Shown: positions 1-61,083 of the stretch, one piece after another
Position numbering within the stretch: position 1 is the stretch's first letter
Layout: each line of letters starts with the position of its first letter
Assembly (NCBI RefSeq): GCF_007753265.1
Contig: NZ_CP036349.1
Span: forward strand, 2,761,363-2,825,362
DNA length: 64,000 bases
Direction of reading: 5' to 3'
DNA from: Botrimarina mediterranea
Lineage (GTDB): Bacteria > Planctomycetota > Planctomycetia > Pirellulales > Lacipirellulaceae
The notes under the pieces: generated by a model
The model's input: only the letters and a program-made list of their open reading frames with translations
The model's database searches: none
Told to the model about the DNA's origin: nothing
Program-made: the position numbers and the translations under genes

Positions 1-336
1 GATTAGACGCTCGAAGCTCTCCTCGGAAGCATCCAGCAAATCGGCGCGCACGTCCGGGGCGACGCCGGCGTTGTTCACCAACGCGTCGAGACGACCGAAG
101 CGTTCAAACACTTCGTCCACCATCCGCTGGCGATCATCGGCCGAGGCGATGTCGGCACGGCAGTACAGCACCTCGGCGCCCTGCGCCGTCAGCTGGTCGA
201 GCGCGTCTTGCACGTCCTCCGCGGGGCGGCGGCCGTTGACGGCGACGTCGAAGCCCGACTGCGCGAGCCGCAAGGCGACCCCGAGGCCGATGCCCCGGGT
301 GCCGCCGGTAACCAGCGCCGCTTTCTTGCCAGCCAT
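1..336 (-). CDS. short-chain dehydrogenase/reductase, partial (C-terminus beyond window)
   Basis: The visible 112 residues are the N-terminal half of a classical SDR. The cofactor motif TGGTRGIG lies near residue 10 and is followed by a Rossmann pattern. A conserved GRRP after the second strand would fit NADP preference, and NNAG lies near residue 90. The catalytic Ser-Tyr-Lys residues are off the window. Its ATG is only five bases after the stop of the GH88-like gene, so the two are probably one operon. SDRs beside GH88 enzymes often act on keto-sugars released from unsaturated uronides, as KduD does, but many such genes are annotated 3-ketoacyl-ACP reductase. The substrate is therefore an inference. 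No signal peptide is seen, so it should be cytoplasmic. Confidence 0.88.
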   Translation of the reverse strand, partial: MAGKKAALVTGGTRGIGLGVALRLAQSGFDVAVNGRRPAEDVQDALDQLTAQGAEVLYCRADIASADDRQRMVDEVFERFGRLDALVNNAGVAPDVRADLLDASEESFERLI

Positions 337-341
337 CGCTG

Positions 342-1730
342 TTAGCTCGCTGTGGGACCGAAGAACGTGTAGTAGGGCTCGCCCTTCGCTAGCCGCTGAA
401 CGTATAGAGCGAGTTCGCGGGCGTGGTAGTCGCCCCACATGCTCGACTCACCGCACGGGACCGACTGGCCCGCCGGGATGTGGTCCCAGCTGTTGGGGCG
501 GTGGTAGACCGAGTGCAGGATCAAGCCCTGGTGGCTGTCATCGGTCGAGAGGTACGCGGGGCTCAAAAGCGTGTCGAGCACTGTGAGCCCCGCCTGACGA
601 TAACGCCCGCCGGCCTCGCCGTCGCCGCGCGATTCTAGGTAGCGACCCAACCGCAACAAGCCCTGGGCGCCGATTGCGGCGGCGGAGCTATCGACCGGCT
701 CGTGGGCGTTGAACGGCTCGGCGGGGCGGTCGAGATAGTCGCCCAACAGCGCGAGGCCCGGCGCGCCGGTGTCCCAATAGGGGATGCCGCAAGTCGGCGT
801 GTGTTCGATGTAGAAGTCGCAAGTCGCCTGCGCCGCCTTGAGGAACACGGCCTCGACGGCATCACGACCTCCGAACGGCTCGAACTCGGCGTCGTCGAGC
901 GTGGCGAGCCACTCGAGTTCCTCCGGGAAGCCGACCATCGCCCACGACAGACCGCGGGTCCAGGTGCTGAATGCCGAGTAACCCTGCTGCGTCGAGGGGC
1001 AGCGGTACTCGCCGTTTTTCGTGTTGAAGACCGACTCGTGCGCCGCTCGGCCACGGACATCGTAGGCGTCGCGGCCGTCGCCGTACCAAAGGTTGTAGCG
1101 CGCCGTCGCCTTGGCGTGGTCGATCAACCGGCCGAGCAGGCTGATCTTTTCATCCCGTTCGCCCAAGAGAGCGTGGCCCAACTGATGCGACACAGCGAGC
1201 GCCCGACACGAACGGATCGTATCGACGAACAGCGACTGCGGGCCGTTGAACGAGTAGATGTAACCGCCGCCGTCGATGGTCGGCGACCACCGCGCCGCCT
1301 GCACCGCGCCGGTCACTTTGAGGGCCAGCTCGCAGAACCGCCGCAGCCAGGCGTCCTCCGGCAGTCGGCCTTCGCGTTGCAGCCGCCAGATCGCGCCGTA
1401 GGTGCTGACATTGTTGAACCCGTGGTCGTGAACGCCGACGTGCGTCAGGTGCGGCGCCATGGCGTCGACCGTGCGGTCGATTCCCAGCTGCAAGAAGCGT
1501 TCGTCGCCCGTCGCGTCGAACTGCAGCAGCGCGGCGCCATACTGAAAGCCCTGCGTCCACTCGGTCCAGCCGCGCGCCGTGTAGCGGCCCTCGACCGTGA
1601 ACACCGGCGAAGGCGATCCCGGTGGCAGCGAAGCCTCGATCGCGTCGATCTTCGCGGCGGAGGCCGACCACAACCGGTCGAGCTTAGGGAGCAAATCACT
1701 CGGCGTGATCTGCCAGTTGATCTGAATCAT
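342..1730 (-). CDS. GH88-like unsaturated glucuronyl hydrolase
   Basis: This 462-residue protein has the (alpha/alpha)6-barrel character of family GH88 (and the related GH105), which hydrate the 4,5-double bond of oligosaccharides made by polysaccharide lyases and so release unsaturated uronic acids. The HDHGF motif (Asp102) and the FVDTIRS motif (Asp170) match the positions of the two catalytic aspartates in characterised unsaturated glucuronyl hydrolases. A long conserved block around residues 235-275 (NTKNGEYRCPSTQQGYSAF) is typical of the family. No signal peptide is present, so it acts in the cytoplasm on imported oligosaccharides. It probably forms an operon with the SDR gene that follows it. 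The exact glycan is unknown. Confidence 0.85.
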   Translation of the reverse strand: MIQINWQITPSDLLPKLDRLWSASAAKIDAIEASLPPGSPSPVFTVEGRYTARGWTEWTQGFQYGAALLQFDATGDERFLQLGIDRTVDAMAPHLTHVGVHDHGFNNVSTYGAIWRLQREGRLPEDAWLRRFCELALKVTGAVQAARWSPTIDGGGYIYSFNGPQSLFVDTIRSCRALAVSHQLGHALLGERDEKISLLGRLIDHAKATARYNLWYGDGRDAYDVRGRAAHESVFNTKNGEYRCPSTQQGYSAFSTWTRGLSWAMVGFPEELEWLATLDDAEFEPFGGRDAVEAVFLKAAQATCDFYIEHTPTCGIPYWDTGAPGLALLGDYLDRPAEPFNAHEPVDSSAAAIGAQGLLRLGRYLESRGDGEAGGRYRQAGLTVLDTLLSPAYLSTDDSHQGLILHSVYHRPNSWDHIPAGQSVPCGESSMWGDYHARELALYVQRLAKGEPYYTFFGPTAS

Positions 1731-1925
1731 GACGAACGGACGCCCAATGAGTCGCTACGAGGAGGCTGACCACGGCGAGGCGGGCACAGCAAAGCTCTAT
1801 AAAGCGACCATCGTAGGCGCCGATCCGCCTTGCATCCAGGCTGTGGCAGGCCCCGTCTTCAGAAACACCGAGGATTACGCGAAATCGGACAGCGATTGCG
1901 GGCGACGCCAGGTCCCTTCAACTTC

Positions 1926-3590
1926 TCAGTGGTGGAACGACGCTGTCTTTTCCGTGTCGTTCTCATCCTCGTCGGGCTCGGCGGGCATCTCGAGGTCGAG
2001 AAGCTCGATCGTCGCCGTGTGGCCGACCTCGGGCGAAGCGCCGCCGATCGCCAGCAGGCCGCCGTCGTGCGCGGGGACCAGCTGGTGGAAGAACCGCTTC
2101 GTGGCGAATTTGTCGACCTTCTCCCAGCTCTGCCGATCCTCACTCAAACGATAGAGCACGCCCGCCATGCCGCCGGCGTAGAGCTCGCCGTCGAGGTTCC
2201 AAGCGGCGAGGCCAAAGCCATGAAAGGCCCGACCGGGAAACTCGGGGCCTTCGCTCCACTCGCTCTTGGCGGGATCGAACAGAAAGACTTGCTTCGACAT
2301 CCCTTGTTCATCCGTCATCCCGCAGAGGGCGACGACCTTGCCATCGATCTGGCTGACGGCCAACGCGCGACGCTTGAACGGCGGCTCGGGGACTTCGCGC
2401 CACCCGGCCGACGGGTCGGCGAGGTCAATCGCCACGGCGCCCGCCTGCCACTCCCCAGAGCTGTCGCCGCTGAGCTTCCAACCGCCGACAACATACAACG
2501 TGTCGCCAACCACGACCGCGTTGTGCGACGAACGTGGCTGCGGGAGGGGCGCGAGTTCAGTCCAGTCCTTCGACTTCGGGTCGTAGCTCGCAAAGCTATC
2601 GACCGAGTGCATGTCTTCGTCTTCGCCCGCAGCGTTGCGCGCGTCGAGACCGCCGATGCGATAAACCTTGCCGCCGTGGGCGACCACCGCGAGGCCCTGC
2701 AGCCCGGGACCCGACGCCAGCTCTTCCCAACCGCCTTCGCCGTCGAGGCGGATGCGGCGGAAGTGATTCGATAGGTTGTCGCGTGAGTGGTCGTGCGCCT
2801 GACCGGTGTGGCCGCCGTAAACGTACAGCCAGCCGTCCGCAACAGCGGCGCCGAAGCTCGACACGGCCTCCGGCAGCGACTCGAGCGCGCCGACCTTGGC
2901 GGCGGCTTCCTTCGAGTAGTTGAAGGTCGCGGTGAGGATGTTCGTGGCCGACGTGAAAGCTTGGCCGTCGAGGTCGCCCTTCGCTTCCTTGTCGTTGTAC
3001 ATCACCATGACGCCATTGAGGCCGTCGTGGACGGCGTCCATCGCGAACTCGGCGACGCCCTCTTCGCTGGCCGTAGCATTGACGCTCTTCTCGCCTTCCT
3101 CGTTAGATAGCGTCGCCTTCGCGCCGGCCAGCGGCTCGCCATTGAGCAGCACCGTCACCACCAGCTTGTCGCCCTCGACCTTCAACAGCGCCTGCAGCGC
3201 GACGTCTTCCGCCGGCTCTTGCGGCCACGTCGCCGGGTTCTCCGCCGGGAAGAGCTGCGCGTAGTAGTTCAGCTTCGAGCCGTGATAGACGCCGTAGACG
3301 ACCTGCGACGTGACACGACCGCGGGGCTCGATCGGGTCCTCACCCTCAAGGCCGATGAACCCGTCCTCCTCAACCGTCTCCACGGCGAGCTTCTTGGCCG
3401 GCGCGTCGATAGCCGACTGCCACAGCTCAGCGGCGCCGATCGATTCGGGCAGGTGGTACTCGGTGTCCGCAAGGCCTTCCCCGAAGTGCATCCGCGGATA
3501 GGCCTCGTCGCTGATCGACAGCCAAGGGAAGTGGGCGAGCGACAGAGTCGGGGCAGCAAGCAGGGCTACGAGAGCGAGCAAACGGTTCAT
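1926..3590 (-). CDS. secreted DUF4198-like domain fused to Kelch beta-propeller
   Basis: I start at the internal ATG because MNRLLALVALLAAPTLSLA is a clear signal peptide. A longer frame adds 12 residues before it. The mature protein (554 residues before cleavage) would begin HFPWLS; an N-terminal histidine right after signal cleavage is typical of DUF4198 (nickel-uptake-like) proteins and could bind metal. Residues of about 20-230 form the DUF4198-like part. Residues of about 240-550 hold repeated Kelch blades with GG-containing motifs (GGHTG, GGLDAR, GGWKL, GGMAGV) and W/Y at the blade ends. The role is unknown; periplasmic metal or carbohydrate binding is an inference. It stands alone on the minus strand upstream of the GH88 gene, with about 195 bp between them. 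Confidence 0.75.
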   Translation of the reverse strand: MNRLLALVALLAAPTLSLAHFPWLSISDEAYPRMHFGEGLADTEYHLPESIGAAELWQSAIDAPAKKLAVETVEEDGFIGLEGEDPIEPRGRVTSQVVYGVYHGSKLNYYAQLFPAENPATWPQEPAEDVALQALLKVEGDKLVVTVLLNGEPLAGAKATLSNEEGEKSVNATASEEGVAEFAMDAVHDGLNGVMVMYNDKEAKGDLDGQAFTSATNILTATFNYSKEAAAKVGALESLPEAVSSFGAAVADGWLYVYGGHTGQAHDHSRDNLSNHFRRIRLDGEGGWEELASGPGLQGLAVVAHGGKVYRIGGLDARNAAGEDEDMHSVDSFASYDPKSKDWTELAPLPQPRSSHNAVVVGDTLYVVGGWKLSGDSSGEWQAGAVAIDLADPSAGWREVPEPPFKRRALAVSQIDGKVVALCGMTDEQGMSKQVFLFDPAKSEWSEGPEFPGRAFHGFGLAAWNLDGELYAGGMAGVLYRLSEDRQSWEKVDKFATKRFFHQLVPAHDGGLLAIGGASPEVGHTATIELLDLEMPAEPDEDENDTEKTASFHH

Positions 3591-3647
3591 CGGAATCGGT
3601 CTCGAGAAAGACGGTTGGGAACTCAATAGTTCGGGGGGGCGCAGATA

Positions 3648-4601
3648 CTACAACGCCTCGACGACCTCATCGCCCGCCCGCGTCACCAACGCGCGGCGGA
3701 CATTGACGTCAGTGTCAGTAGGTACAAACCGGACAGACCCATCCAGCATCGCGAACTGAACGCCACCGGCGTGATCGCTGCGGAAAGTTCGGTGTGAATC
3801 CGAAGGGTAGCGAGTCTTGTTGTTGTTGAACAATCCATACAGGGCTTCCCGATCGCCGGGGGTAAAGATATCGGGTTCTCCCGGCGGCGCTTCTGGGGGA
3901 GTGCTCATGTGACCCCATGCATGCAACCAATAACCCTTCGCCCACGCAAAGCCGTGCTCGTTGTAGCTGTCGATGGAAGGAATCCGCTCTTTAGATTCAA
4001 AGGCGTAGTTGATCTCACCGATCAAGAAAGTTTTGGAAGAGCCGTCGGTTATATCCTTGAATCCTAGACTGTAGGGCTTACCAGGCGTCACGCGCGCGAA
4101 GGCGCCATCGGGATTGCCGCCGGCGCCAAAATACGTCCGCGTTGAAATTAGATAGCTGCCGTAGCCGAAGGCTGGAGCCGTCCCCACAGGACCTAGCACC
4201 GGCGGGCGCATCGAGGGACACAGGTAGGTCTCCACCACGGCGGTCGTTATCGGCGCGTTGGCCGGCGCGGAGAGGAGCTGACTCACATCGTACGTGTCGT
4301 AAAGGCTGCCCTCTTCCAGATAGGGTAAGAGCACAATCAAGGCGCCGCCGTGGTCTTCGGTCGCACCGAAATCACCGGCCTTCGGTGGCGGCAAGTGGCG
4401 ATTCGTATCGAAAAAGTTTTGCGTCGCGAGGCCGACCTGTTTGAGGTTGACGCGGCAGCTGCACCGCCGTGCCGCCTCTCGCGCCGCTTGAACCGCGGGC
4501 AAGAGCAGCGCGATCAAGATCCCGATGATGGCGATCACGACCAAGAGCTCCACGAGCGTGAAGCCTGCGGCCGCGCGATCAGTTGCTGGTTTCCGTTCCA
4601 T
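3648..4601 (-). CDS. DUF1559 family prepilin-like protein
   Basis: The N-terminus carries the type IV prepilin/pseudopilin signature [23 protein letters not shown] followed by [11 protein letters not shown], the hallmark of planctomycete DUF1559 proteins. The hydrophobic helix would be processed at Gly-Phe by a prepilin peptidase. The rest is a DUF1559/SBP_bac_10-like globular domain ending with the typical motif FAMLDGSVRFV about 30 residues from the C-terminus. I start at MERKPATD (317 residues); an upstream ATG would add seven residues, and neither has a strong ribosome site. The gene lies just downstream of a dockerin/PEP-CTERM gene on the same strand, a pairing that recurs at 15.3-18.6 kb. 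The function of DUF1559 proteins is not established; a role in cell-surface architecture is commonly supposed. Confidence 0.92.
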   Translation of the reverse strand: MERKPATDRAAAGFTLVELLVVIAIIGILIALLLPAVQAAREAARRCSCRVNLKQVGLATQNFFDTNRHLPPPKAGDFGATEDHGGALIVLLPYLEEGSLYDTYDVSQLLSAPANAPITTAVVETYLCPSMRPPVLGPVGTAPAFGYGSYLISTRTYFGAGGNPDGAFARVTPGKPYSLGFKDITDGSSKTFLIGEINYAFESKERIPSIDSYNEHGFAWAKGYWLHAWGHMSTPPEAPPGEPDIFTPGDREALYGLFNNNKTRYPSDSHRTFRSDHAGGVQFAMLDGSVRFVPTDTDVNVRRALVTRAGDEVVEAL

Positions 4602-4629
4602 CGTTATCAATTGAGGATACAAGTCGAGG

Positions 4630-5859
4630 TTATGCCGTACGAGGGCGGCGTAGCAGCGACAAATTGGCCAGCGCCAGGATGGCGGTCAGGCAGGCTGTTG
4701 GCTCGGGGACCGCCAGCACTGGCGAACCAGCGAAGGCGTCGCGCCAGACCGAGTAGTCCGCGGCGTCGATGAATCCGTCGCCATTGCCATCGGCGCCCGT
4801 GCTAGGGGTAACGGTTGAGCCGTAAGCTTGCGACCAAACGTCGTAGTCCGCTTGTTCAACGAAGCCGTTGCCGTCGTAGTCGCCGGGGATCGCCAGCAGC
4901 GAGTATTCGATCGCCAGTGAGGCGAACAATTGCCCCGAGGCGCCTTCTCGCATCCGCCACTCGGGATAGGCGCCTCCCGACTGCCCCATGACGCCGGTTC
5001 TGTGCATCGACGAAAGCATGAAACCGATCGATCCATCGGAGAGCGACTCTTGTACATACTGTGCGACTCCCGGCAACGAGAGGTCGAGCTCAAACGTAAA
5101 GTTGATGTTGCCCGCCAGGACCGATCCGACAGCGGCGGCGGTCTTACCGATCGCCCAGGGGGCTGCGGTGAACGGGTCGGTTTGCTCCGTAGGCGACGTG
5201 GCGCTGAACCCACCGGTGTAGCTGTTGGAAACGTCGATGTACTGACCTTCACCATCGCCAGCAATGGGGTAGGCGATGTAAGAGCCGCCCTCGCCTGAGT
5301 ACGGCTCACTCGCTTCGCTGTAGAGCAAATCGCCTGACGCGTTCCCTAGATCGAATCCTTCGTAACCGTCGCGGAAACCTACGCCGAACAGCTCAAAGGG
5401 TTTCTGAGAACTGACGTTTCCACTCTGAGCTTCGGTCAGAAGATCGATGTGCGAAAGCGGCTGATCGGTGTAAAGCAGATCACCCGACGAGAGGGGAGCT
5501 CGCCTGGCCCAAGCCGTCACTTTCACCGATTCGATGCGGTATCGCGTCGGGTCGTTAGCCGGCGCGATCTGATCGGAAGTTTGAAAGGCCATTAGGGCCA
5601 TCCCCAATCGCGACGCCCCTGTTGCATTCCCCCTCACGAACTGGTTCGTTTCCGGGTCGATCGACAAATCGGTAAATGTGGGGCTTTGGAACCGTGACCC
5701 TGAGCCACTGTCATTGTTGGTGTAGACCCATGCATCGATGTCGGCGCCGCCGGTCCATGTCTCCGTCGTCTCCCCGCAGCACACTGCCGCGGGGAGAGCG
5801 ATGGCGTTGAGCAAGAAGGCGGCAGCCGTCGTTTGGCGAATCATCCGTATCAGTTGCAT
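4630..5859 (-). CDS. secreted dockerin-like PEP-CTERM protein
   Basis: A signal peptide (MQLIRMIRQTTAAAFLLNAIALPAA) is followed by about 280 residues of unrecognised beta-rich sequence. Then come two calcium-loop repeats of dockerin type I form (DYDGNGFVEQADYDVW and DGNGDGFIDAADYSVW). The protein ends in a PEP-CTERM sorting tail: VPEPTA, a hydrophobic stretch and RRPR. PEP-CTERM tails are recognised by exosortase/archaeosortase-type enzymes, so the product should be exported and processed at the envelope. I chose the ATG nine bases after an AGAGGA site; a TTG six codons upstream is in frame but less likely. It is followed within 30 bases by the DUF1559 gene and is probably co-transcribed. The ligand or role is unknown. 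Confidence 0.85.
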   Translation of the reverse strand: MQLIRMIRQTTAAAFLLNAIALPAAVCCGETTETWTGGADIDAWVYTNNDSGSGSRFQSPTFTDLSIDPETNQFVRGNATGASRLGMALMAFQTSDQIAPANDPTRYRIESVKVTAWARRAPLSSGDLLYTDQPLSHIDLLTEAQSGNVSSQKPFELFGVGFRDGYEGFDLGNASGDLLYSEASEPYSGEGGSYIAYPIAGDGEGQYIDVSNSYTGGFSATSPTEQTDPFTAAPWAIGKTAAAVGSVLAGNINFTFELDLSLPGVAQYVQESLSDGSIGFMLSSMHRTGVMGQSGGAYPEWRMREGASGQLFASLAIEYSLLAIPGDYDGNGFVEQADYDVWSQAYGSTVTPSTGADGNGDGFIDAADYSVWRDAFAGSPVLAVPEPTACLTAILALANLSLLRRPRTA

Positions 5860-5898
5860 TAGGTAGATCCTCTTCAAGACGTTGCCCGAGGCAAACCC

Positions 5899-6576
5899 TT
5901 ACGATCGGCGCTGCATCGCGACGCCAGCGATGGCTGCCAGGGCGATCACCGCCGAGGTCGGCTCGGGGGTGTGGACGGCGGTGTCAGCGGCATAGCCATC
6001 AGCCGACCAAGCAGCGTCAACGACGAAGAGGCCCATCGACGTGTGTCCGGGCTCAGCCGTAACCATGAACGACGGCGTGACAACCGGGCCGGGGATCTCG
6101 TACTTGACGAAGAATTGACCGGCGCCCATCGCGTTCCCGTCGTCGAGCCTCATCACTTGCAGCGACGGCGAGACGCCATCAATGGGGCCGAACGTAACGT
6201 CGTTCGACCAACCGCCGAACAGCGTAACGCCCTGGACGATAACCGTCGTGAAGCCGTCGGGGCCGACGCCGGGGGCGGTGAAGGTCACTTCTTCCGACAT
6301 CGATCCACCCGCTGCGTAGTAGTTGCCCGAACCAGAGACGTGGACTTCGCCATTGGTCGTAATGAAACTGCCGCTGTGCGTGCCGACATCGGGCGTTGTG
6401 TCCTCAATGACGCCGTCGAGGTTTTCATTCCATGTGTCCCAACCGACGTAGGTCGTGTCCGCATCGCCGCGGAACGACGGCTCGAACAAGCCGGTCGCGG
6501 TGTAGATGTCAAACGGAGCGGCCGTCGCCATGGCGGCGGTCGAGAGGGTCAGGGCGAGTGCGAGGTTGCGGAGCAT
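5899..6576 (-). CDS. secreted PEP-CTERM protein, unknown function
   Basis: A 225-residue protein starting MLRNLALALTLSTAAMATAA, a clean signal peptide. An AAAGGA ribosome site lies about 12 bases upstream; a longer frame of 44 more residues has no such support. The body is glycine/threonine-rich and beta-like (for example VSGSGNYYAAGGSMSEEVTF) with no domain I can name. The C-terminus is HTPEPTSAVIALAAIAGVAMQRRS, a PEP-CTERM tail without dockerin repeats. It lies upstream of the dockerin/PEP-CTERM and DUF1559 genes on the same strand, about 40 bases from the next start, so it probably belongs to the same unit. Confidence 0.82.
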   Translation of the reverse strand: MLRNLALALTLSTAAMATAAPFDIYTATGLFEPSFRGDADTTYVGWDTWNENLDGVIEDTTPDVGTHSGSFITTNGEVHVSGSGNYYAAGGSMSEEVTFTAPGVGPDGFTTVIVQGVTLFGGWSNDVTFGPIDGVSPSLQVMRLDDGNAMGAGQFFVKYEIPGPVVTPSFMVTAEPGHTSMGLFVVDAAWSADGYAADTAVHTPEPTSAVIALAAIAGVAMQRRS

Positions 6577-6868
6577 GAGGTCGAATTTTCCTTTTTCCAC
6601 GTTGTCGTGGCTTGCTACTTGGTGAACTCCGCCGCGGGCGCGACGGCATGGTGGGAACGATTGGGTTGGCCGACGCAACGGCGTCGCCAATCCGCCGAAA
6701 GGGGTCACGATCAGGCGATCGTGTGTGCTGGGCCTCCTACTGGTCTCGCATGGCGGAACGGGTCAGGGCGACACCCGCGGTTGGGTGGCGGCGACGACTC
6801 CCGTTGGCTGGCGATGACCGTGTCGCGCCTCGCAAGAGAGGAGGGCGACGGCCTGGCTGGCGGCGGGT

Positions 6869-6890
6869 GGTGGTTCTTAGGAGAACCACC
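6869..6890. promoter_or_regulatory. perfect 9-bp hairpin upstream of hemP
   Basis: GGTGGTTCT and AGAACCACC pair perfectly around a four-base TAGG loop. It sits ten bases before the Fur-like palindrome. It has no U-run, so a classical terminator is unlikely. It could be part of an untranslated leader or a second operator. Confidence 0.4.
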
Positions 6891-6900
6891 GAATTGTTGT

Positions 6901-6915
6901 TGCGACTGAGTCGCA
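6901..6915. promoter_or_regulatory. candidate Fur-family operator (7-1-7 palindrome) upstream of hemP
   Basis: TGCGACTGAGTCGCA is a perfect 7-1-7 inverted repeat. Known Fur boxes have the same architecture (for example TGAGAATCATTCTCA), and the outer TG, the GA at positions 4-5 and their complements agree. HemP genes are classic iron-regulated targets. The start of hemP lies 115 bases downstream. Operator function is inferred from shape and context only. Confidence 0.5.
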
Positions 6916-7029
6916 GGAGCGGTAGTTTAACCCCATCGGCATTTAAGACAAGTGCCCCTTCCAAAAAAGCTACCCAGCTCCACTCGCCCTCAAATACAGC
7001 CCCTCCCGCGATACCGGAGGGGCCGCGTC

Positions 7030-7233
7030 ATGGCTGAAACGCCGCTACCCGAGGACTCCACCGTCGGTTCGGTGCCCGTCCGCCCCGGGACCTGCCCCAC
7101 CTCCGCTCTGCTAGCGAGAAGCGTCCGCTCGGCCGACCTCTTCGGGGGGGCCAAGATGGTGCTGATCGAGCACGCCGGCGAGCAGTACCGGCTGATCGTC
7201 ACCAAGAACGACAAGCTCATCCTGCAGAAATAG
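7030..7233 (+). CDS. hemP: hemin uptake protein HemP
   Basis: A 67-residue protein whose second half (SADLFGGAKMVLIEH, then GEQYRLIVTKNDKLILQK) closely follows the small HemP family. HemP proteins accompany haem-uptake receptors and are induced by iron starvation; their biochemical role is not fully settled, and a regulatory role on hemin transport has been proposed. I chose the ATG with a strong GGAGGGG ribosome site eight bases upstream; an open frame extends 26 codons further but lacks such a site. No haem receptor, TonB or haem ABC gene is nearby, so it stands alone. A Fur-like palindrome lies 115 bases upstream. The protein is short and probably cytoplasmic. Confidence 0.85.
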   Translation: MAETPLPEDSTVGSVPVRPGTCPTSALLARSVRSADLFGGAKMVLIEHAGEQYRLIVTKNDKLILQK

Positions 7234-7623
7234 CCGTGGGAGGCGCGGCATGGGGTCTGTCCCGCCGTTCCCCTTCGGAGAGGTCGAGAGACGCTCCGCA
7301 TGGCGGCGAAGAAAGGGACCGGCGTCCGGCATGGTTCTGGACATGCGTGCAGATGTCCGTAGAGGGCCCTTCTGCCGCGTCCTGAGGCCGACCTCAGGGT
7401 TTACCCAGGCCCCACCACCGGAGGCCGTAGATGGCCTGCGAGGGGCTTACCTGAGGGCGCAGGCGATTTAATCCCCCAACAGGGGTCGTCGCGGGTCCGG
7501 TCGACGCAGAAATTGCGGTCTCGACTCCCCGAGCGGCGAATAAGATGGCGGACCCGCGCAAAAGTCTTGGGTGACTCTGGCTTACCCTCAAACCAGGACC
7601 GCGGTACCTACGAGGCGACGCCC
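7234..7623. other. intergenic region between hemP and the histidine kinase
   Basis: No gene is supported in these 390 bases. A hairpin CCTGAGG-CCGA-CCTCAGG lies at 7381-7398. It has no U-run, so it is at best an attenuator-like structure. A weak frame running to 7471 overlaps it but has no coding character. Confidence 0.5.
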
Positions 7624-10435: not shown

Positions 10436-10520
10436 GTGGGAGGCGTCTCCAGACGCCGATTACAGTATCCATGCCGTTGCGGAATGGTGTGCGTAATCGG
10501 CGTCGGGAGACGCCTCCCAC
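10436..10520. repeat. REPIN-like inverted doublet A
   Basis: Two 28-base arms at 10436-10463 and 10493-10520 are reverse complements at 27 of 28 positions, with a 29-base spacer. The left arm contains its own palindrome (GGCGTCT-CC-AGACGCC). The element fills the gap between the convergent response-regulator and GH172 genes, so as RNA it could also terminate both. Confidence 0.8.
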
Positions 10521-20066: not shown

Positions 20067-20204
20067 AGTCTCCTGCGCCGCGAGGCGCTCGTTCGGCGAG
20101 AGTGCGAAAGGCCCTCAGCCAGCGATCGAAAGCGAAAACATAGGCCGCTGCCGGCAATAGCGGAAGAACGGAGCGATCTGCGTAGGCGCTTGTCCCTGCT
20201 TCAG

Positions 20205-20304
20205 AATAACCACAGAGACACAGAGACACAGAGGGCACGGAGGAAAGCACAGAGCTGGTTTCTCAGTGCGTCGCTCCGTGCCCTCCGTGGCTCCGTGGTT
20301 AATA
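20205..20304. repeat. REPIN-like inverted doublet B
   Basis: The left arm (20205-20242, AATAACCACAGAG with iterated ACACAGAG and ending GGGCACGGAG) is an imperfect reverse complement of the right arm (20274-20304, CTCCGTGCCCTCCGTGG and ending GTGGTTAATA). The left arm holds one extra eight-base unit. It occupies much of the 294-base gap between the divergent XylR-type and GH172 genes, where promoters must also lie. Confidence 0.75.
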
Positions 20305-21957: not shown

Positions 21958-22908
21958 CAACGTTATGCAGTTGCTAGCAGGGGTTAAAAGAAGGGAGTTC
22001 GCGTTCTACTGAATCTCTTTTGGGACCAACCAAGGGAGAAGCCAGATGGAACGCGAACTCTGGGAGCAACTGTACGCGATTGCCAGGCGGCTGGACAACG
22101 TTTGGACGAGCGGGTTTTACCGGGCGTCGGAGGTCGTGGCGGTGTTCTTATGGGCGGTGGTCCACGACCGGCCCACCAGCTGGGCCTGCCAGCCCGACAA
22201 CTGGCCGCCGCAGCTATCGGTTCCGTTCCCGTCGCAATCGACGATGAGCCGCCGGCTACGGAGCCGTGGCGTGAGGGAGCTGCTGGGCCGTCTGGAGCAG
22301 GCGTTGGGGGGCGACCCGCGGCGCTGGTGGTTGCAACGGATCGACAGCAAGCCGCTGCCGATCGGTTCCTACAGCAAGGACCCCGACGCGCGCGTGGGGC
22401 GGGCGGCCAACCGCTTCGCGAAGGGCTACAAGCTGCACGTGGTGTGGGGCGAGGGCCCGCTCCCTTCGGTGTGGCGGGTGGAGCCGATGAACACGGGCGA
22501 CGCGACGGCCGCTCGTCCGCTGCTCGAAGAGCTGCCGGGCGAGGGCTATGTGACGGGGGACCGTCAGTACGACAGCAACCCGCTGCACCGCGTGGCTTCG
22601 CCGCGTCATCAGATCATCGCCCAGCAGCAGCGGCCGGGGCAGGCGTTGGGGCATCGCCGCCACGAGCCCAGCCGTGTGCACTGCCTGGAGATGCTCCGCC
22701 GTCCCTTCGGACAAGCCGTGCTCGCCTTCCGCGACCCGATCGAACGCTGCTTCGGCAACCTCACCAGCTTCGCCGGCGGCCTGGGCCCCCTGCCAAGCTG
22801 GGTCCGCCGCCAACACCGCGTCCACCTCTGGGTCCAAGCCAAGCTCCTCCTCAACGCCCTCCGCGTCCTCAAACGACAAAAGCTCGTGATAGCAACTGCA
22901 TAACGTTG
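21958..22908 (+). mobile_element. insertion sequence of about 951 bp, IS5-like
   Basis: Perfect 19-bp terminal inverted repeats (CAACGTTATGCAGTTGCTA at 21958-21976 and its complement at 22890-22908) enclose one transposase gene. CAATG flanks both ends directly (21953-21957 and 22909-22913), consistent with a target duplication. Because the next bases are also complementary, the ends could be set one or two bases further out, and the duplication would then be three or one base. The element looks complete and recent. Confidence 0.88.
22046..22903 (+). CDS. IS5-like DDE transposase
   Basis: A 285-residue, apparently intact transposase. The first catalytic Asp is likely in RIDSKPLPIG (near residue 100), the second in VTGDRQYDSN (near 172) and the Glu in RDPIERCFGNL (near 236), giving a DDE core with IERCF spacing as in IS4/IS5-type enzymes. 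A predicted DNA-binding start (WEQLYAIARRL) and an SMSRRLRS-type helix precede it. It is the only gene in the element and fills almost all of it. A frame-shifted 270-residue frame on the same strand is a shadow. Confidence 0.85.
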   Translation: MERELWEQLYAIARRLDNVWTSGFYRASEVVAVFLWAVVHDRPTSWACQPDNWPPQLSVPFPSQSTMSRRLRSRGVRELLGRLEQALGGDPRRWWLQRIDSKPLPIGSYSKDPDARVGRAANRFAKGYKLHVVWGEGPLPSVWRVEPMNTGDATAARPLLEELPGEGYVTGDRQYDSNPLHRVASPRHQIIAQQQRPGQALGHRRHEPSRVHCLEMLRRPFGQAVLAFRDPIERCFGNLTSFAGGLGPLPSWVRRQHRVHLWVQAKLLLNALRVLKRQKLVIATA

Positions 22909-23014: not shown

Positions 23015-24811
23015 ATGGCCAATCGCGACACTCTCGGCGGCGTCATCCACACGTACCAGAAGTACGACCCGATGCGGTTCCCCTCGCCCCGCGATCCGGG
23101 GGAGGGGCCCGACATGGTCTCCGCGGCGTTCGAGCACGCCCTCATGTTCGGCGAACGCCGCGAACTCACCGAAGAAGAAATGGCACGGGCGATCCGCCTC
23201 GACCCCTCCCAGATCGCCGGCCTCGGGCCCAGCATCGACGCGCTGAAGGCGATGCTCGAGGAACGCAAGCGGAAGATCCTGGAGCGGTTCGAGACCCGCA
23301 AGGCCCGCAAGCGCGCCCACAAGGCGCTGCACGGCGCCGCGGCGGAGGTGAAGCCGCCCAAGGAGTTTGCCGACCGCTTCCGCCAAGCGATCAAGACCGA
23401 GCAGCTCCGCGACCTGGAGCGCCTATGGTACGCCACCGGCGACGACAGCTCGCCGTTCGCGCGGCAGCTTGTCCAACTGCTCGATCGGATGGGCGATAAG
23501 TACGAGATCGAAGAATTGATCGCCAAGTACGTCTTCACCGGCGCCGAGTCGATGACCGTGCCACAGGCGCTGGAGGTCAAGGAAGAGCTCGAGAAGATCG
23601 ACGAACTGCTCAAGCAGCTCGAAGAGGCTGCGAAGACAGCGCAGATCGGTCTGATCGATATGGACCTGCTCAGCGAGTTCGCCGAGCCGGGCGACGTCGA
23701 AGGTCTCTCCGAGTTGCAGCAGCAAGTGCAGGACTATTTGCGTGAGGTCGCCGAACGCCAGGGCCTCGAACAGTCCAAGCAAGGCGGCGCCTTTAAGCTC
23801 ACGCCAAAAGCGCATCGCGTCTTCCAGAACAAGCTCCTCCAGCGTCTGTTCAGCGACCTCCAGGCCAGCCGCACCGGCCGCCACCAAGCCGACCTCACCG
23901 GCGAAGGCGCTGTCGAGACGCAGCGCACCCGGCCGTACGAGTTCGGCGACTCGGTGGCGAATATGGACATCGTCTCTACGTTCACGAACGCGATTCTGCG
24001 AAGTCACGCGGAACGTGGCGCTAAGTTGGAAGTGGGAAGTGGGAAGTCGGAAAGTAGTGAATCGGACTCAACCGCAAAAAACTTCCCACTTCCAACTTCC
24101 CACTTCCAACTTCGATCCGATGACATCGTCGTCCACAAAACGCGCAACACGCCCAAAGCCGCCACCTCGGTTGTGATGGACATGTCGGGCTCGATGCGCT
24201 ACGACGGGCAGTACGTGAACGTCAAGCGGATGGCGCTCGCGCTGCAAGGGCTGCTCAGGAGCGAGTTCCCCGGCGACTTCCTGTCGTTCGTCGAGTGCTA
24301 CTCGTTTGGTAAGCCGGTCGAGCCAGGCAAGCTGCTGTCGCTGATGCCCAAGCCGGTGACGATCAACAACCCGGTGGTGCAGCTGCGGGCCGACATGAGC
24401 CGCGACGATATTTCTGAGCAGATGGTCCCGCCGCACTTCACGAACCTCCAACACGGCCTGTCGATCGCCCGCCGTCAACTCGCTGTGCAGGACACGCCTA
24501 ACCGGCAGATTGTGCTGATCACCGACGGCCTGCCGACAGCTCACTTCGAGGGAGAGGTGCTCTACCTCCTCTACCCCCCCGACCCCAGGACCGAGGCCGC
24601 GACGCTCCGGGAGGGGATGCTCTGCGCCCGCGAAGGGATCACGATCAATCTCTTCTTGCTGCCGAGTTGGTCGCAAACCGAAGAGGACGTGCGGTTCGCG
24701 TATCGGCTCGCCGAGTCGACTCGGGGCCGGGTTTTCTTCACCGCGGGACGGGATTTAGACCGTTATGTGGTCTGGGATTACGTGTCGCGACGTCGGGAAG
24801 TGCTGGGATAG
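23015..24811 (+). CDS. VWA-domain protein with an in-frame repeat insertion
   Basis: A 598-residue protein. The N-terminal 330 residues are helical and charged, with coiled-coil-like stretches (VKEELEKIDELLKQLEEA). The C-terminal third is a von Willebrand A domain with the metal-site motif DMSGSM (Asp389, Ser391, Ser393), a distal threonine candidate and ITDGLP near residue 508. Such proteins usually work with MoxR- or ChlI-type AAA ATPases, but none is adjacent here. Residues 337-366 (KLEVGSGKSE to TSHFQL) are encoded exactly by a 90-base inverted repeat, which looks like an insertion between the helical part and the VWA domain. No signal peptide. Confidence 0.85.
   Translation: MANRDTLGGVIHTYQKYDPMRFPSPRDPGEGPDMVSAAFEHALMFGERRELTEEEMARAIRLDPSQIAGLGPSIDALKAMLEERKRKILERFETRKARKRAHKALHGAAAEVKPPKEFADRFRQAIKTEQLRDLERLWYATGDDSSPFARQLVQLLDRMGDKYEIEELIAKYVFTGAESMTVPQALEVKEELEKIDELLKQLEEAAKTAQIGLIDMDLLSEFAEPGDVEGLSELQQQVQDYLREVAERQGLEQSKQGGAFKLTPKAHRVFQNKLLQRLFSDLQASRTGRHQADLTGEGAVETQRTRPYEFGDSVANMDIVSTFTNAILRSHAERGAKLEVGSGKSESSESDSTAKNFPLPTSHFQLRSDDIVVHKTRNTPKAATSVVMDMSGSMRYDGQYVNVKRMALALQGLLRSEFPGDFLSFVECYSFGKPVEPGKLLSLMPKPVTINNPVVQLRADMSRDDISEQMVPPHFTNLQHGLSIARRQLAVQDTPNRQIVLITDGLPTAHFEGEVLYLLYPPDPRTEAATLREGMLCAREGITINLFLLPSWSQTEEDVRFAYRLAESTRGRVFFTAGRDLDRYVVWDYVSRRREVLG
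24023..24112. repeat. REPIN-like inverted doublet D inside the VWA gene
   Basis: The left arm (24023-24047) reads AAGTTGGAAGTGGGAAGT plus GGGAAGT; the right arm (24081-24112) is its reverse complement with one extra seven-base unit. The whole element is 90 bases, begins on a codon boundary and keeps the frame open. The sequence iterates a seven-base AAGTGGG/AAGTTGG unit. Confidence 0.85.
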
Positions 24812-30275: not shown

Positions 30276-30394
30276 AATGACCAATGTCCAAGCCCCAATG
30301 ACCAATGGAAGGGGCCAGGAGTCAGTAATCAGGATGAGCTTGTGCGGCGGTGCCTCATTGGTCATTGGGACTTGGTCATTGGTCATTGGTCATT
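30276..30394. repeat. REPIN-like inverted doublet E
   Basis: Left arm 30276-30308 (AATGACCAATG, spacer TCCAAGCCCC, AATGACCAATG) and right arm 30356-30394 are imperfect reverse complements. The right arm carries additional copies of the seven-base unit TGGTCAT. It lies between the small membrane protein and the HD gene. Confidence 0.75.
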
Positions 30395-37217: not shown

Positions 37218-37998
37218 GACGCTACTCCCCCGTGAAGAGCCTCCGCGCAGACCACGACCTAGGGATCGGCGAGGCCATTGAGAAGCCTAGCTCAGGAAAA
37301 GGAGGGGGGAGGAACGAGGGATTCTGAGCCGTCGGCGCTAGCCGCGGGTAGCCTCTCCAGCTGGTCGTCTACTTCGCAAAGCGAACGCCCAACGTTGGCC
37401 TTGAGACGCGCTGAAAATCGGTTCGATAGCCGAACGAGACCCAGTGGGCATGAACACGCGTCCAGATGCGAATAAAGGGCCTTTGCGGAGCCTTCCGCGG
37501 CGTCTTTGGTCCGAGTGTCGACCCGGGCTCGCGACGCACGGAAGGGCCCTCTATGGGCCCCACAGAAGGCGCCGGCAAAACCCCCGTGTTTTCCAGGGGT
37601 TCAGCACCGGCGAGCCGGGAGCGTCAGCGACCGGAGGGATGCGGGTCCACGTATGGCGAGCGTGTCCGTCGCGCACTCCGGTCGCTGACGCTCCCGGCTC
37701 GCCGGCGCTGGTGGATCGCTGGCGGCGCTCGGCTTCCCAGGGGGACGCGTAGGATGCGACCCAGGCCACGCTTGCTGAGAACTCAGGGGCGCCCGGCGCG
37801 TCGGCGGAGAGCCCCGACGCCCAAGACGATGACGCCGATGGTGGTTCCGCAGTCGTCATTAGCTGCTGAGGTAAGCTGCCCATCGACAAGTTGGAGGACG
37901 CTCAGTGCTACCCGTCATGGATCTGTTGGGGATGCCGATGCAAACTATCCCTTAGTGACAATGTCGTATGCAACGGACTTCCAGCAAGCGGTGCCCGA
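37218..37998. other. gene-poor stretch upstream of the small membrane protein
   Basis: No gene is supported in these 781 bases. It contains the longest inverted doublet of the window and short GC palindromes such as GGGCCC-TCTAT-GGGCCC. Frames here are open in several directions because of high GC. Confidence 0.5.
37602..37710. repeat. REPIN-like inverted doublet G
   Basis: Arms at 37602-37635 and 37677-37710 are reverse complements at 33 of 34 positions (CAGCxCCGGCGAGCCGGGAGC and CGTCAGCGACCGGA). The inner 29 bases are perfect. The 41-base spacer has no coding signal. It lies in an otherwise gene-free stretch. Confidence 0.85.
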
Positions 37999-59304: not shown

Positions 59305-61083
59305 GTGCGTGCATTTCTCACCCTGCTGACGCTGCTGATCGCGCTGACGGCGTTCGGGCAGACTTACCGGTTCGAGGCCGAGACCGGCGTCATCACCACG
59401 TCCGGTTCGAACACCCGGGTCGCGTCGTCGGTCGCGGGCTACTCGGGGACCGGGTACGTCACGGGGTTTCCGAATCAAGACCCGGTGGTCGATCTGCTCA
59501 CCGTGCCGGCTTCGCTCGATGAGGGGCTCTACGACCTCTACGTCGGCTACCGCGCGCCGTTCGGGCCGAAGGGCTACGAACTGTTGGTTGGTGATGAGGC
59601 CTCATCGGGGATGTTCGGCGAGTCGAGTGCGTTCGCCGAGCACTTCGGCGGTCAGTTCTACCTCGATCAGGGAGCGCTGGATGTCCGCGTCAGTGAGGGG
59701 TGGGGCTACTACGACATCGATTACTTCGAGTTCCGCTCGGCCGAAGTCCGCAGGCCGCTGCCCGTTGAGCCGGTGTTGTCGAACCCCACGGCGACGCCAC
59801 GCACGCGGTACCTGATGAACTACCTTGCGGATAACTACGGCACACAGACCCTCTTTGGTCAGCAACGCGAGTACTACAACCCGCCGGCAATCATGACCCC
59901 GGGGGTGCTCAGTCACACCGGCGGGATGTTTCCGGCAATTGTCGGCGGCGATTTGTCGGACTACTCGCCGTCACGCGTCGCGTTCGGCGCCAACGCCAAC
60001 GGCGAGTCGGAACGGTTGATTAACTGGGCGCAGCAATCGGGTGGCATTGTCAGCCTGATGTGGCACTGGAATGCCCCAACGGGCCTGATCAACCAGCCAG
60101 GCCAAGAATGGTGGCGGGGCTTCTACACCGACGCGACGACGTTCGACGTGGGCGCGGCGTTGGCGGACCCGGCGTCGCCGGAGTACGCGCTGCTGCTGCG
60201 CGACATCGACGCCATCTCGGACGAACTGCTGAAGTTCAAGGCGGCGGACGTCCCCGTGCTCTGGCGGCCGCTGCACGAGGCGCAGGGCAACGACTCTGGC
60301 GCGTGGTTCTGGTGGGGCGCCAGCGGGCCCGACGCCCTCAAGGAGCTGTGGGGGCTGATGTACGACCGGATGACCAACCATCACGGCCTCGACAACCTGA
60401 TCTGGGTTTCGACCGCCCAAGTCGAGGCGTCGAACTGGCAAGAGTGGTACCCCGGTCATGACCAAGTCGATATCGTCGGCGTCGACATCTACAGCAACGA
60501 CCCGACCGACAACATGAGCCCGCAGTGGCTGGAGTTGTTGAACGAATTCGACGGCGAGAAGCTGATCGCCCTCAGCGAGACGGGCTCGTTACCTCCGCAG
60601 GAAGTGATGGAGCGTTACGGCGTCTCGTTCAGTTACATGCTCCCTTGGAATGAAGACTTTCTGACCAACGATCAGTCGGCGGCGACGGTGCAGGGGATCA
60701 TCGGCGACGACGACGTCGTGGTGCTCAGCGAGCTGGCGACAATGCCCTGGCGGCAGATCAATCCCGCGGCGGCCGGAGATTACAACGGCGACGGCAGCGT
60801 GGACTCAGCCGATTACGACGTATGGACCGCGATGTACGGCCTCACGGGCGGCGCGCCGGCCGACGGCAATGGCGACGGCGTTGTCGACGCGGTGGATTAC
60901 ACCGTATGGCGCGACGCGATGGCGGCGGCGGTGCTGGCCGTCCCGGAGCCGAGTGCGTTGACGCTGTGTGCCGGGCTTATCGGCTCACTGATCACCAAGT
61001 CCAGGAGCCCACGACGCGAGTCGTGGGAGCCATCCTTGGACCCGGTTCACTCCCACGACTCGCGTCGTGGGCTCTCGAACTAA
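59305..61083 (+). CDS. secreted CBM-GH26 mannanase with dockerin repeats and altered PEP-CTERM tail
   Basis: About 592 residues from GTG (MRAFLTLLTLLIALTAFGQ as written, a signal peptide); a TTG nine bases upstream is possible. Residues of about 20-150 are a CBM35-like carbohydrate-binding sandwich (YRFEAETG, YDLYVGYRAPF). The GH26 barrel carries the acid/base Glu in RPLHEAQG (near 325) and the nucleophile Glu in ALSETG (near 425). Two dockerin-like motifs (DYNGDGSVDSADYDVW, DGNGDGVVDAVDYTVW) and PEPSALTLCAGLIGSLI follow. The expected basic C-terminus is replaced by about 30 residues that read through an inverted doublet. Confidence 0.88.
   Translation: MRAFLTLLTLLIALTAFGQTYRFEAETGVITTSGSNTRVASSVAGYSGTGYVTGFPNQDPVVDLLTVPASLDEGLYDLYVGYRAPFGPKGYELLVGDEASSGMFGESSAFAEHFGGQFYLDQGALDVRVSEGWGYYDIDYFEFRSAEVRRPLPVEPVLSNPTATPRTRYLMNYLADNYGTQTLFGQQREYYNPPAIMTPGVLSHTGGMFPAIVGGDLSDYSPSRVAFGANANGESERLINWAQQSGGIVSLMWHWNAPTGLINQPGQEWWRGFYTDATTFDVGAALADPASPEYALLLRDIDAISDELLKFKAADVPVLWRPLHEAQGNDSGAWFWWGASGPDALKELWGLMYDRMTNHHGLDNLIWVSTAQVEASNWQEWYPGHDQVDIVGVDIYSNDPTDNMSPQWLELLNEFDGEKLIALSETGSLPPQEVMERYGVSFSYMLPWNEDFLTNDQSAATVQGIIGDDDVVVLSELATMPWRQINPAAAGDYNGDGSVDSADYDVWTAMYGLTGGAPADGNGDGVVDAVDYTVWRDAMAAAVLAVPEPSALTLCAGLIGSLITKSRSPRRESWEPSLDPVHSHDSRRGLSN
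61005..61074. repeat. REPIN-like inverted doublet H in the GH26 3' end
   Basis: Two 25-base arms (61005-61029 and 61050-61074) are perfect reverse complements, separated by 20 bases. Each is itself a near-perfect hairpin (CCCACGAC-GCGA-GTCGTGGG). The stop codon lies seven bases after the second arm, so the element supplies the end of the coding sequence and may also terminate the transcript. Confidence 0.85.

Follow-up and report, generated by a model that had tools for sequence, protein, structure and literature searches.

A 90-bp inverted doublet of heptamer arrays in the reading frame of a VWA-domain protein gene of Botrimarina mediterranea

The VWA gene and its inverted doublet

The window, that is, the whole stretch of DNA analysed (64,000 nucleotides), comes from Botrimarina mediterranea, the genome of which (G000) is a single contig of 5,871,207 bp. 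It contains the gene of a VWA-domain protein, and the linker of this protein is partly encoded by two arrays of the heptamer GGAAGTN that face each other. The features of the locus, in window coordinates, are as follows:

23015..24811, plus strand: VWA-domain protein gene, an ORF of 598 aa with a helical N-terminal half, a linker and a VWA domain
23990..24121, plus strand: the variable linker in its full length, flanked by the invariant residues N325 and D370 (alignment)
24023..24052, plus strand: left arm, a GGAAGTN array of a partial unit, three units and a partial unit; encodes KLEVGSGKSE
24053..24082, plus strand: spacer/loop of 30 nt; encodes SSESDSTAKN
24083..24112, plus strand: right arm, an inverted heptamer array of NACTTCC units; encodes FPLPTSHFQL
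24170..24529, plus strand: VWA domain match, residues 386–505, with D389, S391, S393, T476 and D504 invariant (alignment)

The VWA domain was recognised by Pfam (VWA_2, residues 386–505, E 4.2e-06), and an NCBIfam search of the protein gave 0 models fitting at E 0.001. The five invariant residues D389, S391, S393, T476 and D504 presumably form the metal site. In the predicted structure (24 sequences, mean pLDDT 68.3), a helix extends up to residue 341 and the VWA fold begins at residue 383; residues 339–361, which lie between them and within the insert, have a pLDDT below 50 in the model, as do residues 1–49 and 286–317, that is to say, low confidence is not peculiar to the insert. Structural comparison of the model leads to VWA domains, among which that of NorD with NorQ stands at rank 25. 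Upstream neighbours were scanned with the Mg-chelatase ChlI model (cut-off 20.3 bits) at four VWA loci. A match was obtained for Blastopirellula marina (27.1 bits) and a Gimesia MAG (20.4 bits) and none for Lacipirellula limnantheis or B. colliarenosi; three upstream proteins used as tblastn queries gave 0 matches in the window and in two Botrimarina loci. The protein probably works as the VWA partner to an AAA+ ATPase of MoxR/ChlI type. An ORF that immediately precedes the VWA gene in the window (22046–22903) matches the transposase model DDE_Tnp_1.

The inverted-repeat search gave two arms of 30 nt each (24023–24052 and 24083–24112), 30 nt apart, with 28/30 positions paired (93% complementary). 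Since (24023−23015)/3 = 336, the 90-bp element is exactly codons 337–366, KLEVGSGKSESSESDSTAKNFPLPTSHFQL; the used frame contains no stop, and the 90 bp can be read through in 4/6 frames. The linker has an inverted-repeat score of 24, its 300 dinucleotide shuffles reach at most 10, and both the RNA fold (110 nt, −51.6 kcal/mol, z = −7.0) and the DNA fold (90 nt, z = −8.8) were equalled in stability by 0/200 shuffles. The doublet reported in the preliminary description is thus real by repeat search, shuffles and folding alike; that it starts on a codon boundary, has a length divisible by three and carries no stop agrees with the codon positions and the open frame, and its place between the helical part and the VWA domain agrees with the Pfam match and the predicted structure. 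The 30 residues that it was said to add are correct as the length of the segment but not as the net gain, which is about 26–28, because the usual linker has 11–13 aa and this one has 39; a few native codons were perhaps replaced.

The window holds five inverted doublets with a score of at least 17, namely the copy in the VWA gene and those at 10436–10520, 30276–30387, 37602–37710 and 61005–61074. The latter four belong to other families: a GTGGGAGGCGTCTCC REPIN-type, an AATGACC heptamer-type and two GAGCC REP-type doublets. At about 20200–20240 of the window there is also a repetitive motif, ACCACAGAGACACAGAGACACAGAGG, in frame within an overlapping ORF.

The linker among orthologues

Orthologues of the VWA protein were found in 30 of the 43 genomes of the family, and among the 29 readable loci the linker is short in 19 and longer in 10. 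Among the best 80 of 430 orthologue loci (the named loci), the linker, measured from the N-x-x-x-R to the D-x-x-H-type motif, has 11–13 aa in 71 (69 by pattern, together with L100 and L109 by eye) and is longer in 9. Both flanks of the linker are under purifying selection: their protein identity is 70–90% (alignment, 16 orthologues), and their dN/dS is 0.034–0.205 against four relatives, with values of 0.065 and 0.034 on the two sides against the sister species (G001).

The ten longer linkers of the family comprise three with significant doublets, which belong to three families, one that looks eroded, one with a weak doublet and five with none. The GGAAGTN doublet of G000 was matched by 0/300 shuffles. 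The linker of G042 has a GCGGATT/GCGGAAT heptamer doublet (score 19, 0/300 shuffles), the unit array of which is also found at two further places in the G042 genome, and that of G003 has a doublet with CCCTCCCCCTTCGGGGGAGGG arms, of CCCTCCCCC type (score 27, 0/300 shuffles), which matches two dispersed doublets of G001 (39 vs a shuffled maximum of 19). The G001 linker itself does not align with the element of G000 and has no ungapped inverted repeat; it resembles the dispersed GAGCC doublets (30 vs a shuffled maximum of 20), and by this similarity it is probably an eroded REP-type doublet of the GAGCC family. The doublet of G018 is the weak one (4/300 shuffles), and no doublet was found in the linkers of G002, G006, G008, G009 and G039 (25/300 shuffles in G039). 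The exact patterns give thin support for the G001-type and G003-type families, for the G001-type palindrome occurs at 5 places in the 43 genomes (at most 2 mismatches) and the exact G003-type pattern at 2, one place being the linker in each case; a relaxed G003-type pattern gave 9 places in 3/4 genomes and missed the G003 linker itself.

Since the linker is variable throughout the group, its variation in length is not due to this element alone. It had been expected that the segment would be absent from orthologues or replaced by another repeat while the flanks align, and both situations are seen; conservation of the segment in distant genera was looked for among the orthologues and was not found.

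Dispersal and reading frames of the GGAAGTN unit

The two-unit pattern GGAAGTNGGAAGT has 48 matches in its own genome vs 1 for the reversed control. They fall at 21 sites: convergent doublets, always with the G-array first, at 14, and arrays on one strand at 7, one of them (L038) maybe due to chance. On inspection the spacers differ between copies and are seemingly unrelated, which means that the copies did not arise simply by duplicating one element. By rough gene calls, several of the other copies immediately precede an apparent start codon or lie between two genes that run in one direction; codon-score frame calling, which is too noisy to classify the 21 copies, placed 3/21 in the same frame, L038 included. 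The strict GGAAGTN doublet pattern occurs in 2/43 family genomes, G000 and G001, both Botrimarina (control 0), and another unit, GCGGAWT, forms doublets in 8/43, by a pattern that misses G042 because the spacer there exceeds the length allowed.

In order to compare the arms, they were exchanged between loci and re-registered among the 14 doublets. The summed pairing score was 252 vs a permuted mean of 249.5 (191/500 permutations at least as high), and the free N agreed between paired arms in 12/28 units (permuted mean 0.52; 428/500 permutations at least as high). Arm-to-arm copying thus has no support among these doublets: as pairing and N agreement are no better than permuted, the arms were seemingly not copied from each other, and they look like draws from one unit pool.

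As seven is not divisible by three, the three frames of a strand all translate a pure heptamer array into one and the same cyclic heptapeptide, which for GGAAGTG is GSGKWEV or TSHFPLP; it follows that GGAAGTN arms are free of stops in any frame, the exception being a GGAAGTA unit read from the G strand. Frame neutrality belongs to stop-free units and not to heptamers as such. Taken together, heptamer-type doublets have a mean of 2.17/6 open frames vs 2.60/6 in the others (arms 7.83/12 vs 9.29/12), and only the three GGAAGTN doublets are more open (4/6 frames; arms 10–12 of 12).

In G000 the unit is also read in frame in a FadB/FadJ-type protein (residues 214–239) and a tandem UvrA (residues 1108–1140), and arrays on one strand are in frame in a LolC/E-like permease and at the C-terminal tail of a GGDEF protein. 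In G001 it is in frame in a MutS-like protein (KWEVGSGKSE...PPTSDFPL), and a ValRS-like protein of G000 has an in-frame REP-type doublet, both names being given by reading. The linker of the FadB/FadJ-type protein has a significant doublet in 2/20 orthologues (G000 and G001) and none in the other 18 (best L149, 12/200 shuffles); the linker peptide of L146 among them, which we take to resemble the CCCTCTCCC element, has no significant inverted repeat. The tandem UvrA, a protein of 2440 aa (L044, G000:C1:5016400-5024400, minus strand, ORF 2-7321), additionally carries two GAATGAC heptamer doublets in its two modules (EARMTNDE...SSFVIRHSSF and EARMTNAD...RHSSF). Two further doublets were placed by reading, one just before a lipobox-like stretch of a DUF3299 protein (L031 3925–4005) and one just before the N-methylation motif of a DUF1559 protein (L046 3990–4080), so the start or signal residues of these two proteins may come from the repeat.

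REPIN-like doublets of several families number 64 in 0.8 Mb of G000 (G000:C1 1-800000, L151-L230) and 137 in 1.6 Mb of G001 (G001:C1 1-1600000, L231-L270), and most of them are not heptamer arrays. By a rough mask (80% coding), 51 of the 64 are intergenic, 9 lie partly and 4 mainly in genes, which is expected if most insertions into genes get lost. Doublets in frame within ORFs, with coding scores on both sides, are 2/64 in G000 and 3/137 in G001, one of the five ORFs being doubtful (G001:1579429); heptamers are in excess among in-ORF doublets (2/6 vs 3/195, Fisher p 0.007), the numbers being very small. De novo doublets in the 0.8 Mb of G000 number 8 of period 7, 2 of period 8, 2 of period 9, 3 of period 10 and 0 of periods 5, 6 and 11; there are 5 of period 7 and 6 of period 8 in the 1.6 Mb of G001. 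In 1.32 Mb around the 80 named loci, six doublets have period 9 and two have period 7, both with units other than GGAAGTN. The idea that period 7 is special was dropped on the counts of G001 and of the named loci.

G000 and G001 have three GGAAGTN doublets in common. One lies within the FadB/FadJ-type gene, another precedes a recJ-like gene, and the third separates a gcvH-like from a gcvP-like gene (recJ, gcvH and gcvP named by reading the sequence). With arm ends chosen manually, identical positions amount to 163/183 in the arms, 38/73 in the spacers and 476/610 in the flanks, and the better-kept arms could reflect some arm function. Moreover, site 663073 has GGAATGC-type arms in G000 and GGAAGTG-type arms at the orthologous site of G001, and site 653786 has a GAATGAC heptamer doublet in G000 and a doublet of another family in G001. 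When the 64 G000 doublets were followed into G001, 23 could be placed, with 8 doublets of the same family (two at threshold), 3 of another kind and 12 without any; control intergenic sites have a doublet in 6/49 placed (600 tries). General hot spots for repeat-type exchange were considered and rejected: with 3/15 vs 6/49 control sites there is no clear excess, so the exchange of repeat types is in general not above background, and these counts do not make repeat exchange as in the VWA linker a general rule.

Origin of the element and comparison with known repeats

The 90 bp are, with high probability, a copy of a dispersed repeat that entered a permissive linker in a frame-keeping length and was tolerated. 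The two GGAAGTN arrays facing each other across an arbitrary spacer would be a copy of the dispersed repeat of this genome, which would have entered the linker joining the helical half to the VWA domain, a permissive and probably disordered segment. The length would have kept the frame, for which the total must be a multiple of three, the spacer open and the site tolerant of a disordered segment. Insertion is read from the comparison between species, and the translation of the segment from the open frame; that tolerance followed insertion would be the simplest account. The peptide would then be a disordered tether without a specific role, and the VWA mRNA would carry a stable hairpin at the element. 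The preliminary description had left the choice between a repeat tolerated in a linker and one recruited as coding sequence; the former is supported, and recruitment in the sense of usefulness would go beyond this support.

It is improbable that the doublet arose at the place itself, by slippage growth from a native seed (the F-R-L-R codons contain CTTCC) which was then mirrored by template switch. In its favour, the codons of relatives at this point of the linker contain CTTCC and the end of the G008 linker reads like three degenerate heptamers (both by eye), the spacers of the GGAAGTN copies are seemingly unrelated, and site 663073 has doublets of different unit types in the two species; however, GGAAGTN recurs at 21 sites in one genome, and the arms pair no better than exchanged arms.

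A hairpin that works as RNA or DNA on expression or mRNA stability, with coding being incidental, is compatible with insertion and rather unlikely. The stable RNA fold would agree with it, as would the arms kept better than the spacers against G001 in 3/3 doublets and the copies roughly called just upstream of apparent starts or between co-directional genes, but the element is kept in 0/9 other long-linker orthologues of the family, the sister species has another sequence, and the pairing at the N positions is not maintained. A similarly small chance is given to mobilisation as a REPIN by a RAYT (Y1 transposase), which is also compatible with insertion. The architecture is REPIN-like, doublets are many in G000 and G001 (most not heptamer arrays), and there are 5 Y1 transposases in G000 and 9 in G001; against this, the heptamer arms have no internal palindrome, and a heptamer doublet was found in 0/20 Y1 loci (3.2–3.4 kb each, of 25 matches in 5 genomes). 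Seven of these 20 loci contain perfect palindromes whose arms are at least 10 long, two of them of the TAGCC/GTAGCC type. An assembly or sequencing artefact has next to no probability, the frame being open on both sides of the element and the unit being present at 21 sites and recurring in another species at the orthologous position of the FadB/FadJ-type gene.

Cyanobacteria likewise have heptamer arrays in functional genes, namely the STRR heptamers in rnpB and in the tRNA-Leu intron; these differ from GGAAGTN in being in RNA genes and in their unit sequences. The nearest arrays are the heptameric repeats GGGAATC of Xanthomonas and GGGGA(C/T)T of Nostoc, which have 2–26 units per array and are dispersed and mostly intergenic (Rehm et al. 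2015, PMC4692102). According to the part of that paper available here, two Xanthomonas genomes have 70 and 75 convergent pairs, 7–11% of the Xanthomonas repeats overlap ORFs, and the position of a repeat is often kept between species, with length and sequence varying; this part contains no study of in-frame protein inserts, and the text of the paper does not mention planctomycetes (PMC4692102). Like the Xanthomonas heptamers, GGAAGTN has dispersed arrays of at least two units (48 matches, 21 sites) and forms convergent pairs (14/21 sites). Unlike GGGANTN, it reads GGGAAGT when N = G, with G and not T as the sixth base; the left arm (N = T, G, G, C) contains two GGG tracts, compared with the four of the G-quadruplex criterion.

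RPEs are described, in the accessible parts of the sources, as palindromic repeats of about 100–150 bp that lie in frame in conserved protein genes and are tolerated (PMC2229807, PMC10969869). The VWA-gene element is likewise an in-frame palindromic insert in a conserved protein gene, and by these descriptions it is set apart from the RPE families, which have their own sequences, by its heptamer-array arms and arbitrary spacer. GTAG/CGTC REPs and REP dimers are found inside ORFs, where they give 20–30 residues (Di Nocera et al. 2013, PMC3733652). In the portion of this work at hand, intragenic REPs are often in genes of DNA synthesis and repair (uvrA, uvrB, recB) and of tRNA synthetases, different REPs lie at about one recB site in two Xanthomonas species, and REPs are noted in Planctomycetes (PMC3733652). 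The VWA-gene element is not a REP, as its arms are direct heptamer arrays with no internal palindrome and no GTAG/CGTC tag. With REPINs, as far as the excerpt describes them (PMC3116915), it shares the inverted doublet with a spacer, the predicted hairpin and the dispersal, and it differs from them in the lack of a heptamer doublet at the 20 Y1 transposase loci. In Borgs, tandem repeats read in frame create disordered protein regions; unlike the inverted doublet of the VWA gene, these are, in the part of the source available, direct tandem repeats of archaeal extrachromosomal elements (PMC9879509). The open-licence literature yielded no paper joining planctomycetes with heptameric repeats or Botrimarina with repeats. 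In-frame palindromic repeats and convergent heptamer pairs are already known, and their combination, in planctomycetes, is new.

Coming back to the insertion of a dispersed repeat, the same protein linker holds, in related species, repeats from three or four families that are unrelated to each other, and the adjoining domains are conserved. With this case, the idea that small palindromic repeats regularly supply protein linkers becomes open to direct tests in culturable planctomycetes. It is put forward tentatively, as a doubtful but conceivable generalisation, that convergent heptamer doublets might be distinct small dispersed elements of planctomycetes, the stop-free units of which would easily be captured as linkers and the units or families of which would turn over at fixed sites. 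If so, linkers rebuilt from a different repeat in different species would time and again provide proteins with new disordered sequence. That stop-free seven-base arrays read alike in every frame hints at a simple rule on the kinds of repeat that a gene can take up, and low-complexity peptides such as KWEVGSGKSE and PLPTSHF in these proteins would then be recognisable as translated repeats and not as domains. Besides the heptamers, G000 and G001 also have doublets with 8- and 9-base units (CGCGAAGG, CGCAGAGA and GACGCGGAT), which suggests a wider class of inverted doublets.
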